34,320 bases of DNA from Dehalococcoidia bacterium (GTDB lineage: Bacteria; Chloroflexota; Dehalococcoidia; Dehalococcoidales; RBG-16-60-22): positions 1 through 34,320 of the forward strand of contig PLLL01000035.1 in NCBI GenBank assembly GCA_003141235.1, written 5' to 3'. The notes beneath the pieces are model-generated. The model made no database searches, was not told the origin of the DNA, and worked only from the letters and a program-made list of their open reading frames with translations. Every line of letters starts with the position of its first letter. Position 1 is the stretch's first letter. Positions 3,106 through 21,752 of the stretch are shown piece by piece. The translations under genes and the position numbers were made by a program.

Positions 3106-6100
3106 ATGAGGAAAAAAACAGTAGTATCACCATTCCCGGACGACCCGCTCTGGTATAAGGACGCGATAATTTATGAGCTCCACATCCGCTCTTTCTACGA
3201 TAGTAACGCCGACGGCATCGGCGACTTCGCGGGGTTAATCCAGAAACTTGATTACCTCGAAGAACTTGGGGTAAACACTCTGTGGCTGCTTCCCTTCTAC
3301 CCATCACCGCTTAAAGATGATGGGTATGATATTTCCGACTATTATAATATCAACCCCGTCTATGGTCAGATGGCTGATTTCGAGACTTTCCTTGATGAAG
3401 CCCATCGCCGCGGCCTCCGTGTCATTACGGAACTGGTGATTAACCATACCTCTGACCAGCACCCCTGGTTCCAGAAGGCGCGCCTTTCTGCTCCCGGAAG
3501 CCGCGCGCGCGATTTCTACGTCTGGAGCGATGACCGCGATAAATATAAAGGGGCGCGTATCATTTTCAAAGACTCTGAATGTTCCAACTGGACATGGGAC
3601 GAAGCGGCTAAAGCATATTACTGGCACCGGTTCTATTCCCACCAGCCTGACCTCAATTTTGACAATCCGGCGGTTCACCAGGCTATTTTCAAAGTAGTCG
3701 ATTTCTGGTTTAAAAAGGGCGTTGACGGACTAAGGGTTGACGCCGTGCCTTACCTTTACGAGCGGGAGGACACCAGCTGCGAAAACCTGCCCGAGACTCA
3801 TGCCTTTTTAAAGGAACTGCGTGCTCATGTTGATAGTAAATTTAAAAATCGCCTTCTTTTAGCCGAGGCCAACCAGTGGCCGGAGGATGCCGTCCCGTAT
3901 TTTGGTAAAGGGGACGAGTTCCATATGGCCTTTCACTTCCCGATTATGCCGCGCCTGTTTATGGCCATTGGCATGGAGGACCGCTTCCCGATCGTTGATA
4001 TTCTCCGGCAGACTCCGCCGATACCTGAAAACTGCCAGTGGGCTATCTTCCTCCGCAATCATGATGAGCTGACGCTGGAGATGGTGACCGAAGAAGAGCG
4101 TGATTACATGTACCGGGTATACGCTCAAGACCCTGATGCGCGTCTCAACCTGGGTATCCGCCGCCGCCTGGCCCCGCTCCTTAATAACGACCGGAGAAAG
4201 CTTGAGCTGCTGAATGCCCTGCTTTTCTCTTTACCTGGAACGCCGGTGGTGTACTACGGGGATGAAATAGCTATGGGGGACAACATTCATCTCAGCGACC
4301 GCAACGGGGTGCGCACGCCGATGCAGTGGAGCGCCGACCGGAATGCCGGCTTTTCCCGCGCCAATCTGCAAAAACTTGATTTCCCGGCGATTACCGAACC
4401 GGCTTATCATTATAAATCGGTCAATATAGAGACACAGCAGGACAATCCCGACTCCTTCCTGTCATGGATGAAGCGAATTATCGCTCTCAACAAGCGGTAC
4501 AAGGCTTTCGGGCGCGGCAGTATCGAATTTCTGCAACCGGAGAACCATAAGGTACTAACGTTCCTCCGCCGTTATCAGGGAGAGACAATTCTGGTGATAG
4601 CCAACCTTTCACACCTGGGGCAACAAACTCAGCTTGACCTCAAAGAGTTCACCGGCTGCCGGATTATCAATGTCTTTGGCCCGGTGGAGTTCACACCGGT
4701 CACGGAGAGCAAATATCACTTTACACTTAGTCCTTACGCCTACTATTGGTTTGCGCTCCAGCCGCGGCAGGTTGGAACGACACCGCTCCGGGCGCTGCCT
4801 GCCGAAGAAATAGCCAGAGTCCCAACTGTAGCCAAAGCTGCTGACGAACTTTTTGAAACTGAGAATCTGGATGTAATGGAGACATTACTGCAAAACTATA
4901 TAAAAGGCCGCCGCTGGTTCCGCAGTAAAGCGCGTGATATCCAATCGTCCCGGATTAAAGATGTTATTCCGACACACTCACCGGAATGTACAGCCTACTT
5001 CGTCCTGATTCAGGTTAACTACGTCGAGGGTGAGCCGGAGACTTACGTGATTCCTCTCAGCGTCGTCTCTGCCGAGCAGGTACGCGCGATTCGCAGTGAA
5101 CAACCTCAAGCTATCGTCGCCCGCCTCCAGCCGCCGGATGGCGGTAACGAGTCGCTGCTCTGCGACGCTATGCTGGATAAAAATTTCTGCAAGTTCCTCC
5201 TGCAAAGCATCGGCAAAAGACACCGCTTCAAAGGAGAAAACGGTCAAATCGTAGGTTCATCGACTCCGGCTTTTTCCAACGCTCTGGGCCCGGATGAAGC
5301 TGTCCCGGAACCGGTCCCCATTAAAGCCGAGCAAACCAATACGTCTATCGTCTATGGGGACAAATTAATACTCAAGCTGTTCCGTCAACTTGGTGAAGGG
5401 ATTAATCCGGAACTGGAAATAGGCCGCTTTCTTACCGAAAAGACAGCCTTTACCAATGTCCCGCCGCTGGCCGGCGCTATCGAGTATCATCAGGCGAACG
5501 CCAGGCCGATAAGCCTGGCCATCCTCCATGGCTTTGTGCCCAACGAAGGTGATGCCTGGCGTTATACCCAGGATTCTCTGGAACGTTACTTTCAATATGT
5601 ACTTACGCAACCCGCAAAGTCCAGACCTCCCCTTCCCCGGGGACCTCTGGTCTCCCTATCAAAGGAGATTCCTCCCCTTGCCAGAGAGGCTATCGGTGCT
5701 TATCTTGTTTCCGCACAACTCCTGGGACAGCGAACCGCCGAACTTCATATAGCTCTTACCTCCGCGCCGGATGATCCGGACTTTGCTCCGGAGCCATTTT
5801 CATTTGCATATCAGTCATCTCTTTACCAGTCGATGCGCGGCCAGACCGTCCGTACTTTGCAGCTACTGCGGGAAAAGATACCGAGCCTGCCTGAAGATAT
5901 CCGGGCAACGGCACAGAAGGTCTGTGACCTTGAGTCTTCCATCATCGAACGCTATCATTTAATTCAGCACCAGAATATTTCGGCGGTCAGGACCCGGTAC
6001 CATGGAGACTATCACCTCGGGCAGGTACTCTACACAGGTAAGGACTTTGTCATCATTGACTTCGAGGGTGAAACGGCCCGCCCGTTAAGCGAGCGGCGTT

Positions 6101-11399: not shown

Positions 11400-12005
11400 A
11401 TGAAAATCCTGGCTATTTCGTGCAGTCCTAATAAGGACGGCAGTACGGTTACCCTGTTGAATAAGGCGCTCGAGGGAGCGAAAAAAGACGGCGCTGAGGT
11501 GGAGCTATGGAGCGCGGCCGGTAAAGACATCAAGCCCTGCGATGCCTGCCGCGCCTGCGGCAAGACCGGCAAATGCGTTATCAAGGACGATGTGACGCCG
11601 CTCCAGGAAAAAATGATTGCCGCCGACGGCATTATCTTCGGGATGCCGGTGTATTATTACGGGATGGCCGCCCAGGCAAAGTGCATCATCGACCGGTCGA
11701 CGGCTCTCAAGCCGCCCGGGAGAAACCTGAACAATAAAATCGGCGGGCTGGTCACGGTGGCGGGCAGCTTCGGACTATCTGATGTGGTAAAAGACTTCTG
11801 CTTCTATTTCTTCTCGCAGCGGATGCTGATGGCCAACTGGATAGGCGCTTACAGCCTTGGAGTTGAAGAGCTGAAGAAAATGGAGAAGTGCATGCAGGGT
11901 TCGCAAGACCTCGGCAGGGCAATGGTGGCGATGGCCAGGATGAATTTCAAGTATCCCGCCGAGCTCATGGGTAGGGCGGTTGCCTACGGCACGCATACGA
12001 AGTAA
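11400..12005 (+). CDS. NAD(P)H-dependent FMN reductase / iron-sulfur flavoprotein-like
   Basis: MKILAISCSPNKDGSTVTLLNKALEGA, CDACRACGKTGKCVIKDD, GIIFGMPVYYYGMAAQAKCIIDR. Confidence 0.88.
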   Translation: MKILAISCSPNKDGSTVTLLNKALEGAKKDGAEVELWSAAGKDIKPCDACRACGKTGKCVIKDDVTPLQEKMIAADGIIFGMPVYYYGMAAQAKCIIDRSTALKPPGRNLNNKIGGLVTVAGSFGLSDVVKDFCFYFFSQRMLMANWIGAYSLGVEELKKMEKCMQGSQDLGRAMVAMARMNFKYPAELMGRAVAYGTHTK

Positions 12006-12052
12006 GTAGCAAGTACCAAGTAGCAAGTACCAAGTAGCAAGTATCAGGTATC
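12002..12052 (+). repeat. Short tandem repeat (14-bp period, two 7-mers)
   Basis: aagtagcaagtaccaagtagcaagtaccaagtagcaagtatc abutting the FMN reductase stop codon. Confidence 0.85.
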
Positions 12053-12088
12053 AAAGAGGGGGGCGTAAAAGCCCCTCTTTCTTTTTGT
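12053..12088 (+). terminator. Intrinsic terminator
   Basis: AAAGAGGGGggcgtaaaagCCCCTCTTTcttttt. Confidence 0.8.
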
Positions 12089-12206: not shown

Positions 12207-12353
12207 ATGAGGGTGTTAAAACTAGCCATGGAGAACGGCAGGTGGGACCTGGCGGCGCATACTATCGTACTGGCGGCGGCAAAGCAATTGGAGAAAGGGG
12301 GGAAATCAATTGGAAATGAAAGAAAAACGAAAAAGGGGCGGGCAAAAGGGTAA
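12207..12353 (+). CDS. 48-aa hypothetical phage-associated protein overlapping the TerS-like gene
   Basis: MRVLKLAMENGRWDLAAHTIVLAAAKQLEKGGKSIGNERKTKKGRAKG*; aagggagg RBS-like sequence upstream. Confidence 0.5.
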   Translation: MRVLKLAMENGRWDLAAHTIVLAAAKQLEKGGKSIGNERKTKKGRAKG

Positions 12354-12684
12354 TCAGAATGCACGGACACATGGCTTTTATTCAAAGGCGCTCGATGACA
12401 CGGAAAAGGACGACATGGAACTGGCCATCGGAATAAGCGACATCGACGATGAGATAGCTTTGCTACGGGTTAAAATAAAGGCGGTGCTGGCGAGAGACCC
12501 GGAGAACGTGAAGCTGATAATGCAGGCGACGAATGCGCTGGCAGAGCTAATGATAAAAAAGTACCAGATCAATAAAGAGCAGAAGAAAGGGCTGAAGATA
12601 GCGATAGGCAACGTGTTTCGAGATGTGGCTTTGCCGGCGGGAATAAACCTGGGGGCGGATATCATTGGAAAGCGATTCGGTTAA
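12310..12684 (+). CDS. Terminase small-subunit-like phage protein
   Basis: N-terminal GGQKGNQNARTHGFYSKAL motif common in TerS-like phage proteins, immediately upstream of TerL. Confidence 0.6.
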   Translation: MEMKEKRKRGGQKGNQNARTHGFYSKALDDTEKDDMELAIGISDIDDEIALLRVKIKAVLARDPENVKLIMQATNALAELMIKKYQINKEQKKGLKIAIGNVFRDVALPAGINLGADIIGKRFG

Positions 12685-14086
12685 TACATGGCCAGGCGTT
12701 CGGTTGCTACACCCCTATCAACAAGAGGTGTGTACAGCCATATACCTCAGCGTGCGCGACAAAAAAGGGCTGACCTTTTCGGTCGAGATAGCGCGACAGG
12801 GGGGCAAGAACGAGATGTCAGCACAACTGGAAATGATGCTGCTCATCGCGCATATGGAAAAGCCGAAAAACCTGATAAAGTGCTCGCCGACGTTCAAGCC
12901 GCAGTCGGTCATCTCGATGATACGGTTGAAAGACCGCCTGAATGATGCCGGTTTTAACGGCGACTGGGCGTCCGAGCTCGGATATATCATCAAGCTCGGA
13001 GAGGCTCGCGCTATCTTCCTCTCCGCTGATGAATCGGCCAGCGTCGTCGGCAATACAGCTCACATCCTGCTCGAAATCGACGAGTCTCAGGACGTCAGCA
13101 AGGAAAAGTACACCAAGGAGTTCAAGCCGATGGGCGCGACGACCAACGTAACCACCGTCCATTACGGCACGACCTGGGACGATACCACACTGCTGGAGGA
13201 GGTCAAGCAGACCAACCTCGAACTGGAGCGGCGGGACGGCATCCGGCGGCACTTCCGCTATGACTGGGAGGAGGTGGCGAAATACAACCCGGACTACCTG
13301 GCTTACGTGACGGGGGAAAGGGAGCGGCTGGGCGAAAACCACCCGCTTTTCCTGACGCAATACCGCCTCTTGCCGATAACAGGCGGGGGCGGCTTTTTCA
13401 GCGCGCAGCAGCGGGCGCAATTGCAGGGCGAACACACGCGCAGACACCAGCCGGAAGCGGGAAAATTATATATCGCCGGGATAGACCTGGCCGGGGAAGA
13501 AGAATTAGAGGACGGTCATCTGATTTCATTAAATCCAAAACGCGATTCCACGGTGGTTACTATTGGCGAACTGGACTTTACCGGTGGGGATAACACGGTT
13601 AAAGAGCCGCATATTAAAATAATTGAGCATTACCGCTGGACAGGGAAAAAGCACCCCGAGCTTTACGCACAGCTGGTGGATATCCTCAAAAATGTCTGGC
13701 ATTGCCGCCGGATAGTCGTGGATGCAACAGGCGTCGGCGAGCCGGTGGCGTCGTTTTTGCGTAAGGCGCTGGGCTCAAGGGTAGAACCGTTCCATTTCAC
13801 GGCGAAAAGTAAAAGCGAGCTGGGCTTCAACCTGCTGGCGGCGGTGAACTCCGGGCGGCTGAAGGTTTATAAGGGTGACGGCTCGGCGGAGTATCAGGAG
13901 TTCCGGGGGGAAATGGAGCGGGCGCGGAGCCAGTACCGGGCCAGCCAGACGATGAACTTTTACGTCGACCCCGCGCAGGGGCACGACGACTTTTTAATGA
14001 GCCTGGCGCTGGTGGTGGAGGCGGGACGGGGATACGAAAAGAGAGAGGCGAAAGGTGGAGAAAGGGAGGGAGGAAGTAGTTGGTAG
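12665..14086 (+). CDS. Phage terminase large subunit
   Basis: ARQGGKNE Walker A-like motif, IDESQDV Walker B-like motif, nuclease-domain motifs AGIDLAGE, VVDATGVGEPV, HDDFLMSLAL. Confidence 0.85.
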   Translation: MESDSVNTWPGVRLLHPYQQEVCTAIYLSVRDKKGLTFSVEIARQGGKNEMSAQLEMMLLIAHMEKPKNLIKCSPTFKPQSVISMIRLKDRLNDAGFNGDWASELGYIIKLGEARAIFLSADESASVVGNTAHILLEIDESQDVSKEKYTKEFKPMGATTNVTTVHYGTTWDDTTLLEEVKQTNLELERRDGIRRHFRYDWEEVAKYNPDYLAYVTGERERLGENHPLFLTQYRLLPITGGGGFFSAQQRAQLQGEHTRRHQPEAGKLYIAGIDLAGEEELEDGHLISLNPKRDSTVVTIGELDFTGGDNTVKEPHIKIIEHYRWTGKKHPELYAQLVDILKNVWHCRRIVVDATGVGEPVASFLRKALGSRVEPFHFTAKSKSELGFNLLAAVNSGRLKVYKGDGSAEYQEFRGEMERARSQYRASQTMNFYVDPAQGHDDFLMSLALVVEAGRGYEKREAKGGEREGGSSW

Positions 14087-14238
14087 TTGGTAGTTAGGGG
14101 AATAAAAACTCCCTTAATCCCTTCCTTCGGCTTTGCTCAGGACATGCTTTACGAAAGAGGAAGATTGGTAAAGGAGGGAGAGGGAGTGAGGGAAGATATT
14201 ATTTAGAGATATATATTAATTTTATATATCAATCCCAC

Positions 14239-14799: not shown

Positions 14800-14913
14800 G
14801 GAGGGGAAAAGGGGAGGGGTGGGTTAAAATCCTCCTTGTCTCCCCCTTTGACAAGGGGTGACAATTCATCAGGTAAAGATTACAATAATTACACAAGAGG
14901 CAAACATTATCTC
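14800..14913 (+). repeat. Repeat unit A (palindromic) upstream of the DUF559 gene
   Basis: aatcctccttgtctccCCCCTTtgacAAGGGGtgacaattcatc...aggcaaacattatctc; direct repeat of 15277-15364, with a G-rich flank shared with 15806-15834. Confidence 0.75.
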
Positions 14914-14927
14914 AATTTAAAAAGCGA

Positions 14928-15311
14928 GTGCGAAGAGTTTTGGTAATACCGTATAATACTAACCATAAAATAATTTCAAAAAGCCTTCGCAGTAAACCTA
15001 CGGAAGCAGAACGGTGTTTGTGGAAAAGGCTTAAGCTAAAACATATCGGCTATATCTTCCACAGGCAGAAGCCGATAGGTGATTACATTGTGGATTTTTA
15101 TTGTCCTAAAGCAAAACTCATTATTGAAGTTGATGGCGATTATCACTCTAGTGCTGAAATGGCCGGCAATGATAAGGTCAGGGATAAAATAATGCAGAAT
15201 CTTGGAATGACTGTATTGCGATTTCACAATTCAGAAGTACTAAATAATACTGAAAAAGTGATAGATACGATTAGACAAATCCTCCTTGCCTCCTCCTTTG
15301 ACAAGGAGTGA
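14928..15311 (+). CDS. DUF559 (Vsr-like fold) endonuclease-domain protein
   Basis: LRSKPTEAERCLWKRLKLKHIGYIFHRQKPIGDYIVDFYCPKAKLIIEVDGDYHSS...VLRFHNSEVL is a typical DUF559 sequence. Confidence 0.88.
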   Translation: MRRVLVIPYNTNHKIISKSLRSKPTEAERCLWKRLKLKHIGYIFHRQKPIGDYIVDFYCPKAKLIIEVDGDYHSSAEMAGNDKVRDKIMQNLGMTVLRFHNSEVLNNTEKVIDTIRQILLASSFDKE

Positions 15312-15380
15312 CAATACATCGGGTCATAAAAAGTAATTCAAATACATAAGGCAAACATCGTCTCCCCTGTCAAGGGGAGA
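15277..15380 (+). repeat. Repeat unit B overlapping the 3' end of the DUF559 gene
   Basis: aaatcctccttgcctccTCCTTtgacAAGGAgtgacaatacatc...aggcaaacatcgtctcc followed by CTCCCCTgtcaAGGGGAG (15362-15379). Confidence 0.75.
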
Positions 15381-15396
15381 GCAGAGTAGGATTAAA

Positions 15397-15807
15397 TTGA
15401 GAAAACGCTCAGATATAAAAGCCGATATTGAAAAATTAAAGAAATTAAAAGCTTTACAGATAAAAGCTACAGATAAATTAAACAAGATAGGGGAAGATGC
15501 TGCCGGTAAAGCACCCAAAAAGAAAAAGACCAAACCGGCAGTTAAAAGAAAGCCGGTAGTAAAAAGAAAGCCGCTAATAAAGAGAAAGCTGGCAGGTAAA
15601 AATAAAGCTAAAACTACCGTTAGCGTAAGAAAAAAAACCTCAAGAAAAAAACCTAAACCTGTAAGAAAGACTATATCCAAATCACCTGTAAAAAGAAAGA
15701 TAGTACGTAGAAAGAAGATAACGGCACCCGCTAAAAGAAAATCAGCGGCTAAAAAGGCAAAAACAACAAAAAGAAACAAAGCCAAAAAAGCAAAGAGTAA
15801 AAGGTAG
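15397..15807 (+). CDS. Lys/Arg-rich low-complexity protein (histone H1/AlgP-like composition)
   Basis: 136 aa with repeated KRKPVVKRKPLIKRK / KKAKTTKRNKAKKAKSKR; TTG start. Confidence 0.6.
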   Translation: MRKRSDIKADIEKLKKLKALQIKATDKLNKIGEDAAGKAPKKKKTKPAVKRKPVVKRKPLIKRKLAGKNKAKTTVSVRKKTSRKKPKPVRKTISKSPVKRKIVRRKKITAPAKRKSAAKKAKTTKRNKAKKAKSKR

Positions 15808-15870
15808 GGGAAAAGGGGAGGGGGGTGAATTAAATCTCCCTCTTATCCCTCCTTACAAAGGAGGGAAGGT
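15806..15870 (+). repeat. Repeat unit C (palindromic)
   Basis: ggggaaaaggggaggggggtgaattaaatctccctcttatCCCTCCTTacaAAGGAGGGaaggtgac; G-rich arm matches unit A upstream flank. Confidence 0.65.
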
Positions 15871-17394: not shown

Positions 17395-17536
17395 TTATAA
17401 GGAAGGAACGGGGTTTTTATGGGGAGAGGAAAGGGGGCGAAGAAGTAGTTGGTAATTTGTAGTTGGTAGTTTGTAATAAACGGAGAGAGGTAATGGATTT
17501 ATTCCTCGATGAAAATGACAAGACGGCCATAAAAAG

Positions 17537-19827: not shown

Positions 19828-20151
19828 ATGAATACTTTAACGAATGAGATTAGAGTTGACGCCACGGAACCGGAACAGGAAGAAACAGAACAGCACGAAA
19901 AAGACTTGCCGCCGGAATATTGCCAATACAAGGATGAAGGGTGCGAATACGCCAAATCCTGTCTCGATTGCCCCTTTCCGCAATGCCTGTACGATGAACC
20001 CCGGGGCAGGCAGCGCTGGCTTAAGGAGCTGCGCAACAAAGAAATAAACCGCCAATTTGAGGCCGGCCGGAAGATCAGAGAACTTGCGGTAATGTTCGAT
20101 GTCAGCGATAGAACGGTACAAAGGGCGGTCAAAGGGATAAGTAGCAAGTAA
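19828..20151 (+). CDS. Cys-rich HTH DNA-binding protein (phage-type regulator)
   Basis: CQYKDEGCEYAKSCLDCPFPQC cluster plus C-terminal HTH IRELAVMFDVSDRTVQRAVK. Confidence 0.65.
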   Translation: MNTLTNEIRVDATEPEQEETEQHEKDLPPEYCQYKDEGCEYAKSCLDCPFPQCLYDEPRGRQRWLKELRNKEINRQFEAGRKIRELAVMFDVSDRTVQRAVKGISSK

Positions 20152-20188
20152 CAAGTAGCAAGTAACAAGGAAAAAGTAGCAAGGAAAT
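20139..20188 (+). repeat. Degenerate 7-mer tandem repeat
   Basis: aagtagc aagtaac aagtagc aagtaac aaggaaa aagtagc aagg; supplies the TAA of the upstream gene. Confidence 0.8.
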
Positions 20189-20315
20189 AAGAATAAGTGA
20201 CAAATATAAAGGAGCGGGGAAGCGATTGGTACTTGTAACCTGGCGGTTGTTACTTAAATAAAATGGGTTTGATACTTGACAGTTGTCACTTAATATAAAA
20301 AAGGAGAGATAAGCT

Positions 20316-20681
20316 ATGAGCGAAGTATTTATTTCCCAGCTAGCGCGTCTGGATATGGAAAGAGTAAAAGGCTATAAGGACATGCTGGACTTTTACTACG
20401 GGCGACAGTGGGAAGGCCGGGAGAGAAGGGGCGAAAGACGTCTAACTTTTAATTATGCCAAGGTCTTTATAGAGAAAATTACATCTTACCTGATGTCTGA
20501 TATCAGCTTTACCGTGGACGCTTTAGAGGACTCGGATAAAGCGAGAGATAACGCCAGGCGGGAAATAGAGGCGGAGGCGGCGCGGTCACGGATACCGGCC
20601 GGAGCGCCGCAGAGGACGCCGCCGGACATGTCGGGTCTGTCAGCACGGGAAAAGATACAGTACGGTCTGGGGGGAGGATAA
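20316..20681 (+). pseudogene. Phage portal protein N-terminal fragment, possibly fused to another structural gene tail
   Basis: YKDMLDFYYGRQWEGRERRGERRLTFNYAKVFIEKITSYLMSDISFTVD is portal-like; ORF ends at 121 aa with an unrelated-looking tail RIPAGAPQRTPPDMSGLSAREKIQYGLGGG. Confidence 0.65.
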
Positions 20682-20692
20682 ACTGGAAGTGT

Positions 20693-20775
20693 CCCCCTTT
20701 GGAAAAGGGGGATAAAAGGGGGATTTTGATTCGCGTACAACAAAATCCTTCTCACTCTCCCTTTACAAAAGGGAG
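20693..20775. repeat. Two palindromic repeats between portal fragment and MCP
   Basis: CCCCCTTT-gga-AAAGGGGG (20693-20711) and CTCCCTTT-aca-AAAGGGAG (20757-20775). Confidence 0.75.
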
Positions 20776-20831
20776 ACGATAGATAGGGTCAATATTCAAC
20801 AATAATATTAAATAACAGGAGGTAATTTATT

Positions 20832-21752
20832 ATGGCTTTAACATTAGCCGAAGCAGCCAAACTTTCAAACGATATGCTGATGCAGGGGGTGGTGGAGACC
20901 ATCGTTAAAGACTCTCCGGTGCTCCAGAGGCTTCCTTTCATCGAAATCGTGGGCAACGGTCTGACCTATAACCGGGAAAACACTTTACCCGATATTGATT
21001 TTTACGATGTCGGCGATACTTGGACGGAATCCACGCCGACTTTTTCCCAGGTGACGGCCAATCTGAAAATCATGGGCGGCGACGCCGATGTGGATAACTT
21101 CCTCAAAGCGACCCGCAGCAATATCCAGGATCTGGAGACAGCCGTTATCGAGCTGAAGGCCAAGGCGCTGAAGAACAAGTTCGAGGAGATGTTCATTTAC
21201 GGCAATACCTCGACCAATGCCAAACAGTTCGACGGGCTTAAGAAAATCATCAATACCGGGTCGTCTGGCGACCAGGTCATTGCCATGGGCGCAACCGGCG
21301 CCACGCTGACCCTGGCCAAGCTGGATGAGCTTGTCGACGCGGTTAAAGGCGGAAAACCGGACATGCTCCTGATGAGCCGCCGCTCGCGGCGTAAGATAAA
21401 CGCCCTGGTCAGGACGGCCGGCGGTATGACCGAGACCGACCAGGATAAATGGGGCAATTTCATGCAGCTCTGGGACAGCGTGCCCATCGGTGTGAATGAC
21501 TGGATTCTGGACACTCACGTCCTCAGCAGCAGTGTGGAAACGGCCACCACCGGCGGCACCTCTTCCACCATCTACGCCGTCCAGTTCGGGGAGGGGGCGC
21601 TTAGCGGCCTGACCAGCCCCGGCTATCTGCACGCTGAACCGGTAGGCCCGCTGGAGACCAAGGACGCCTCACGGACACGGGTCAAGTGGTATGTATCACT
21701 GGCTTTGTTCAGTTCGGTGAAAGCGGCGGCCCTTATCGGCGTCCAGGATTAA
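20832..21752 (+). CDS. Phage major capsid protein
   Basis: 306 aa; MALTLAEAAKLSNDMLMQGVVETIVKDSPVLQRLPF...; capsid-like organisation and genomic context; RBS aggaggt. Confidence 0.75.
   Translation: MALTLAEAAKLSNDMLMQGVVETIVKDSPVLQRLPFIEIVGNGLTYNRENTLPDIDFYDVGDTWTESTPTFSQVTANLKIMGGDADVDNFLKATRSNIQDLETAVIELKAKALKNKFEEMFIYGNTSTNAKQFDGLKKIINTGSSGDQVIAMGATGATLTLAKLDELVDAVKGGKPDMLLMSRRSRRKINALVRTAGGMTETDQDKWGNFMQLWDSVPIGVNDWILDTHVLSSSVETATTGGTSSTIYAVQFGEGALSGLTSPGYLHAEPVGPLETKDASRTRVKWYVSLALFSSVKAAALIGVQD

Follow-up and report, generated by a model that had tools for sequence, protein, structure and literature searches.

The window analysed here (the whole stretch of 34,320 nucleotides, contig C32 of a genome of 2.15 Mb in 122 contigs) is read, with a probability of roughly 0.6, as holding a decayed copy of a mobile element that ends in REP-type palindromes, carries a Vsr-like (EDxHD) nuclease of the DUF559 family as its only gene and works in a manner like that of REPIN-RAYT systems. 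Palindromic repeats between genes are found in bacterial genomes at large, and the DUF559 domain, itself common, has no known function; to our knowledge, the machinery that spreads most palindromic repeat families is unknown, RAYTs accounting for some of them only. The evidence suggests that the DUF559 enzyme and the repeats around it constitute a mobile genetic element that had not previously been recognised. A search of the open-access literature (subscription papers and preprints lay outside it) returned no report linking DUF559 to REPs or palindromes.

The nuclease gene and its repeats in the window

The DUF559/EDxHD Vsr-like nuclease gene (14928–15311, forward strand; 127 aa, GTG start; PF04480) lies between two related repeats, termed units A and B. 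Unit A (14827–14918, forward strand) is a truncated REPIN-like repeat, recognised by BLAST to unit B and to solo copies on contigs C94, C47, C19, C12, C62 and C18; it contains a foot (AAATCCT), a first hairpin (CCCCTT-TGAC-AAGGGG, 14843–14858, with a covarying pair at 14844/14857) and a spacer. Unit B (15277–15393, forward strand), of about 120 bp, is a complete REPIN-like repeat when compared with full-length copies and has three stems: an outer stem (AAATCCT/AGGATT) closes the hairpins CTCCTT-TGAC-AAGGAG (15293–15308), which sequence and covariation mark as compensatory to that of A, and CTCCCCT-GTCA-AGGGGAG (15362–15379), identified from sequence, the full-length copies and covariation. The earlier note on this DNA had described units A and B as related, each with its first hairpin, and the gene as running into the repeat. 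This description holds: the units align in direct orientation with 90% identity over their first 48 bp, both hairpins are present, and the DUF559 gene overlaps unit B with its last ~10 codons. A third hairpin that had been taken as separate is B's own second arm, because full-length copies elsewhere in the genome (on C94, C47, C19 and C95) hold both hairpins inside an outer AAATCCT/AGGATTT stem.

A G-rich arm said to be common to A and C, GGGGAAAAGGGGAGGGG, was located at 14803–14819 and again at 15807–15823, where it opens unit C (15807–15865, defined from sequence) ahead of a foot (AAATCTCC) and a hairpin (CCCTCCTT-ACA-AAGGAGGG, 15847–15865); arm, hairpins and unit C carry no strand assignment. 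Reading A-gene-B-gene-C as an intact cassette array, as had been proposed, is not supported. Unit A is without its second hairpin, and the Lys/Arg-rich ORF that follows unit B (15397–15807, forward strand; 136 aa), for which a Pfam search matched no family, looks like an unrelated neighbour outside the recurring unit. Since unit A lacks that hairpin, the window's copy of the DUF559-repeat element is regarded as decayed.

Other features of the window include broken-up prophage pieces (12310–14086 and 20316–21752) with repeat-rich stretches between them, which hold small-terminase-like and large terminase genes, a possible portal fragment and an SU10-like major capsid protein. Short intergenic direct-repeat tracts of the AAGTAGCAAGTA / GTAGTTGGTAGTT type are found at 12003–12071, 14076–14101, 17429–17484 and 20138–20192, with the inverse at 2682–2730, and the end of a mutS-like gene is partly duplicated downstream (1390–1448 and 1533–1591; 59 bp, 81% alike), the two copies being separated by a hairpin repeat.

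Besides unit B, about a dozen copies of the REPIN-like repeat are found in the genome. Searching it with unit A, a check that the earlier note had proposed, gave 22 BLAST matches at E≤1 and 14 at E<1e-6, and the generic palindrome pattern occurs 54 times, its reversed control once. Nine full-length copies are dispersed REP doublets in the sense used for REPIN-RAYT systems, that is, foot-plus-hairpin units in inverted pairs. Folding these nine with RNAalifold gave 21 pairs, four of which were changed on both sides. Among the four is the compensatory change first noticed in the window, C-G at 14844/14857 vs T-A at 15294/15307, which was correctly described and which occurs in the nine genomic copies as C-G seven times and U-A twice. 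A Pfam search found five DUF559 genes in this genome, all adjoined by GC-rich pyrimidine/purine hairpin repeats of different subfamilies, and their protein tails extend into the repeats (e.g. NPPCIPPLRKGE). REPIN pairs also flank toxin-antitoxin and defence genes: the accessory genes bracketed at L028:4548-5306 and 3253-4404, and at L030:3879-4452 and 4682-5185, comprise a CAP12/Pycsar-type TIR protein (PADLOC PDC-S35), a PDC-S11 protein, a HigBA pair and a Mrr_N protein.

The DUF559 nuclease

The assignment of the window's gene to DUF559 was borne out by its match to PF04480 (112.4 bits against a curated cut-off of 20.6; E 1.2e-32). Across the aligned family, residues E28, D56, E67, D69 and H73 are invariant in 127/127 sequences and D82 in 126/126. 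The DUF559 profile matches 3HRL (E 2e-36) and 3R3P, the catalytic domain of I-Bth0305I (E 6.5e-6), and these two are also the best PDB matches of an AlphaFold2 model (pLDDT 82.8), with target TM values of 0.90 and 0.80; PvuRts1I and Vsr follow, the Vsr entries 1VSR and 1CW0 standing lower in the list. Family and predicted fold place the protein among the EDxHD/Vsr-like nucleases, near I-Bth0305I, itself an EDxHD-family homing endonuclease (PMC3943268). In Caulobacter without its cytosine methylase, the SOS response depends genetically on a DUF559 protein, which bears indirectly on nuclease activity, and a role for this protein in very-short-patch repair has been proposed (PMC12907096). The Geomonas DUF559 gene is under purifying selection, with dN/dS of 0.06–0.18 in the 13 pairs computed, though G098 has a frameshifted copy; that copy (L405, G098:C1:4063800-4066300) retains intact hairpins at both ends and has the look of a decaying element.

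Hairpins beside DUF559 genes across phyla

One genome per species was scanned with an alignment of 17 proteins (A1), and the 80 loci recovered represent at least 20 phyla, one archaeon included. Perfect hairpins of at least 8 bp were found within 250 bp of DUF559 upstream in 47/77 cases, downstream in 55/80 and on both sides in 36/80; the corresponding figures for other genes in the same loci were 46/652, 84/652 and 5/652. The stretches within 350 bp of DUF559 showed a 58-fold higher density of C..TT-nnn-AA..G palindromes than the remainder of the loci did. With hairpin classes that are coarse in this survey, the combined set has a pyrimidine-arm hairpin within 250 bp on at least one side of 108 of the 123 DUF559 genes and on both sides of 63, and none beside the remaining 15. 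Repeat copies are thus strongly associated with DUF559 genes, as the earlier note had suggested checking.

Two other sources of this pattern were rejected. An artefact of the query alignment would not be expected to extend to copies retrieved by the Pfam model alone, of which 15/29 were flanked on both sides. A general property of small accessory genes is likewise not indicated: no PIN gene had hairpins on both sides in the same genomes as the DUF559 set (0/26), and in order-level relatives the count was 12/19 for DUF559 and 0/30 for PemK. Distant viral DUF559-like genes, taken as a natural negative control, are mostly without repeats.

Architecture of the unit and matching of repeat to nuclease

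The typical unit, of ~440 bp, consists of a hairpin, an inward foot (..GGGGGGATTT), the nuclease gene, the inverse foot (AAATCCCCCC..) and a second hairpin. Its outer-to-outer span has a median of 446 bp (IQR 426–509), and the foot of the nearest repeat points to the gene on both sides (25 vs 5 upstream, 31 vs 5 downstream). The gene is flanked either by single units in inverted orientation or by complete direct copies of ~115–160 bp. Two repeat types occur beside DUF559, CCCCCTTT (YTT) and CCTCTCCC (YC), and the type is the same upstream and downstream in 59/64 genomic cases.

The repeat type follows the nuclease. The DUF559 protein tree was used for its overall pattern alone, as it is built on few columns and leaves many forks open. 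On this tree, repeat type requires 10 changes over 118 rows, against a shuffled mean of 39 and minimum of 31. Over the 63 rows with known phylum, repeat type requires 5 changes and host phylum 31 (minimum possible 19, shuffled 42), and an effect of host lineage was rejected, as repeat type tracks protein clade and not phylum. Proteins with the F-Y-RQ motif pair with YTT (54/56) and those with F-R-RQ pair with YC (32/33). Both pairings are found inside single genomes (e.g. G000, G011, G020, G062, G072 and G078), and G066 is an exception.

Repeats beyond the two main classes also occur, as on the Pseudanabaena plasmid ABRG53a (L246), where CCCCCCAATTCTGGGGGG palindromes flank DUF559. In Neisseria gonorrhoeae (L245, NZ_CP119142.1, a chromosome-sized record although held in a plasmid collection), DUF559 lies between two near-identical direct repeats with the hairpin CTCTCCCTGTGGGAAAGAG; this gene is probably the one solved as 3HRL (NGO0050, Neisseria gonorrhoeae).

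Occupied and empty sites

Mobility was addressed by comparing 19 genomes of Geomonas, the genus of G092. Both occupied and empty orthologous sites, which the earlier note had suggested seeking, were found here and not at the window site; the comparisons are between species, with no base-resolution junction within one species. Between formate dehydrogenase and cytochrome genes, a repeat-DUF559-repeat arrangement is present in G092 and G095, the site is bare in G101, G102 and G097, and G105 holds a single repeat and no gene. The lone repeat fits either gain of the gene at a pre-existing repeat or its loss by recombination. In G110, the unit separates two transporter genes that are immediate neighbours in G111, and as this empty state has no repeat it suggests that a pre-existing repeat is not always needed; inspection by eye at G110 showed no target-site duplication.

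DUF559 is found at further sites with unrelated flanks in G095, G098, G099, G101, G108 and G110, and the sequence that Geomonas units have in common runs from one outer hairpin to the opposite outer hairpin, which gives the boundaries of the unit. The gene is not always mobile, since in Azospirillum it occupies one conserved place in all strains, with no empty site on plasmids.

REP number and DUF559

Palindromes were counted in 61 relatives with the pattern CYCCCTTTNNNAAAGGGRG, one mismatch being allowed; they reach 108 per genome, against 0–2 for the reversed control. The median is 21 in DUF559 carriers vs 1 in other genomes (p 4e-7), and the partial rank correlation of REP number with DUF559, given genome size, is 0.50, whereas PemK in the same test was not significant. 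DUF559 is present in 0/35 genomes with ≤2 palindromes and in 11/14 with ≥10. The genomes compared lack phylogenetic independence, but restricting the comparison to the family that the window belongs to leaves the difference in place (p 8e-5). Circular counting was rejected, as the association remains when four palindromes are deducted for each DUF559 gene (p 8e-5). Mobilisation by Y1 transposases was also rejected: Y1_Tnp, found in 8/61 relatives, shows no association with REP number, and the DUF559-REP link persists among Y1-negative genomes (p 1.5e-5). Some REP-rich relatives, with G012 (39 palindromes) and G044 (29) as instances, are without DUF559, and G054 has 52 YTT palindromes yet its sole DUF559 comes from the other clade; incomplete MAGs may explain such genomes without a matching DUF559.

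Relation to known systems

The closest parallel is the REPIN-RAYT system, in which REPs are associated with TnpA-REP (Bertels and Rainey 2011, PMC3116915). Both have short, footed palindromes dispersed in intergenic DNA as inverted doublets, and both have a low-copy gene between the same repeats, with repeat type matched to gene type. They differ in the enzyme, which in RAYTs is an HUH (Y1) tyrosine transposase flanked by REPs and here is a PD-(D/E)XK/EDxHD nuclease, the flanked gene being DUF559.

With EDxHD homing endonucleases such as I-Bth0305I (PMC3943268), the DUF559 protein shares a homologous catalytic domain (sequence E 6.5e-6, target-normalised TM 0.80), and in both the nuclease gene is a mobile unit with occupied and empty sites, the latter found among orthologous Geomonas sites. 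However, I-Bth0305I is a long multi-domain enzyme, whereas DUF559 has 127 aa and no additional DNA-binding domains, and no intron or intein context was found for DUF559 units. Nor are the targets one cognate allelic locus; dispersed palindromes delimit the gene, and the units stand at several unrelated sites with unrelated flanks.

Pairs of MITEs and parent transposons likewise have terminal inverted repeats and short non-autonomous derivatives of a gene-bearing unit. The DUF559 unit differs from these in having a small nuclease as its sole gene, in lacking a DDE transposase and in that no target-site duplication was identified, as judged by eye at G110. Multicopy palindromic sequences without explanation were noted long ago in Geobacter (PMC2996986, PMC2700814). 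Compared by description, they too are intergenic families of unexplained origin, in close relatives of Geomonas, and the portions of those papers that describe them link no nuclease to them.

Proposed mechanism and alternatives

In the proposed mechanism, the solo and paired terminal repeats (REPs and REPINs) scattered in the host genome would be non-autonomous copies. The nuclease would recognise the foot plus hairpin and may cut DNA that bears the repeat, upon which repair could copy the REP-ended unit, or a REP alone, into the break and would draw on repeat homology at places that already carry a REP. Such a system would act as a REPIN-RAYT pair, or as a homing gene with dispersed targets, in which a PD-(D/E)XK-type nuclease replaces the HUH transposase. 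The earlier note's suggestion that a Vsr-fold nuclease spreads with structured repeats is upheld as regards their association, the occupied and empty sites and the covariation, also seen in the additional copies, whilst it is by inference that we give the nuclease itself the part of moving the repeats. A broader proposal, to which we give about even odds, concerns the pyrimidine-arm REPs CCCCCTTT-nnn-AAAGGGGG and CCCTCACCCTAACC-CTCTCCC-n-GGGAGAGG: these would make up a superfamily that extends across phyla, with the DUF559 nucleases as its missing mobilisers. Nucleases and repeats would jointly constitute a class of mobile element without transposase, recombinase or reverse transcriptase: a REP-ended nuclease gene of ~440 bp, spread by cutting at or near repeats and by repair copying, with each clade matched to its own repeat.

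The strongest alternative, which we regard as unlikely but deserving of real weight, is that REPs are spread by a RAYT/IS200-type transposase or an unknown factor, and that ordinary homologous recombination moves small accessory genes such as DUF559 from REP to REP, where they persist because REPs mark harmless intergenic sites. It would account for the HigBA pair and the Mrr_N, TIR effector and PDC-S11 proteins that are also REPIN-bracketed in the window's genome, and for the several loci with full-length direct-repeat flanks, as recombination would leave. Yet PIN and PemK genes are equally accessory and none is flanked on both sides, the unit has constant inward feet and a constant span, and the repeat type follows the clade of the nuclease, between phyla and even where both clades share a genome. 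REP number, moreover, is tracked not by the Y1 transposase but, among Y1-negative genomes, by DUF559.

It is improbable that DUF559 is instead a repair or processing nuclease for hairpins, cruciforms or T:G mismatches at REPs, kept beside them by selection and mobilising nothing. A repair enzyme acts in trans and has no need to be embedded in repeats, and the gene is patchy, at varied insertion sites and missing from sister species, which sets it apart from housekeeping genes; these points weigh against the nearness of the fold to Vsr and the repair role proposed in Caulobacter, from which such a reading would draw. That GC-rich hairpins or terminators merely happen to adjoin a small gene is very improbable and was rejected, for although downstream hairpins stand beside 13% of control genes, the excess on both sides, the 58-fold density and the membership of multi-copy families, with pattern counts far above the near-zero reversed control, are not those of chance.

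Significance

Under the preferred reading, of a REP-ended element with a DUF559 nuclease as its sole gene, the consequences depend on the pairing of nuclease and repeat being functional. If it is, the DUF559 domain would gain a function and a large class of orphan repeats would gain a mobiliser, and a further route for the spread of selfish genes would stand beside transposases and intron or intein homing. The pairing is directly testable in the laboratory, because two nuclease clades carry two distinct repeat types.
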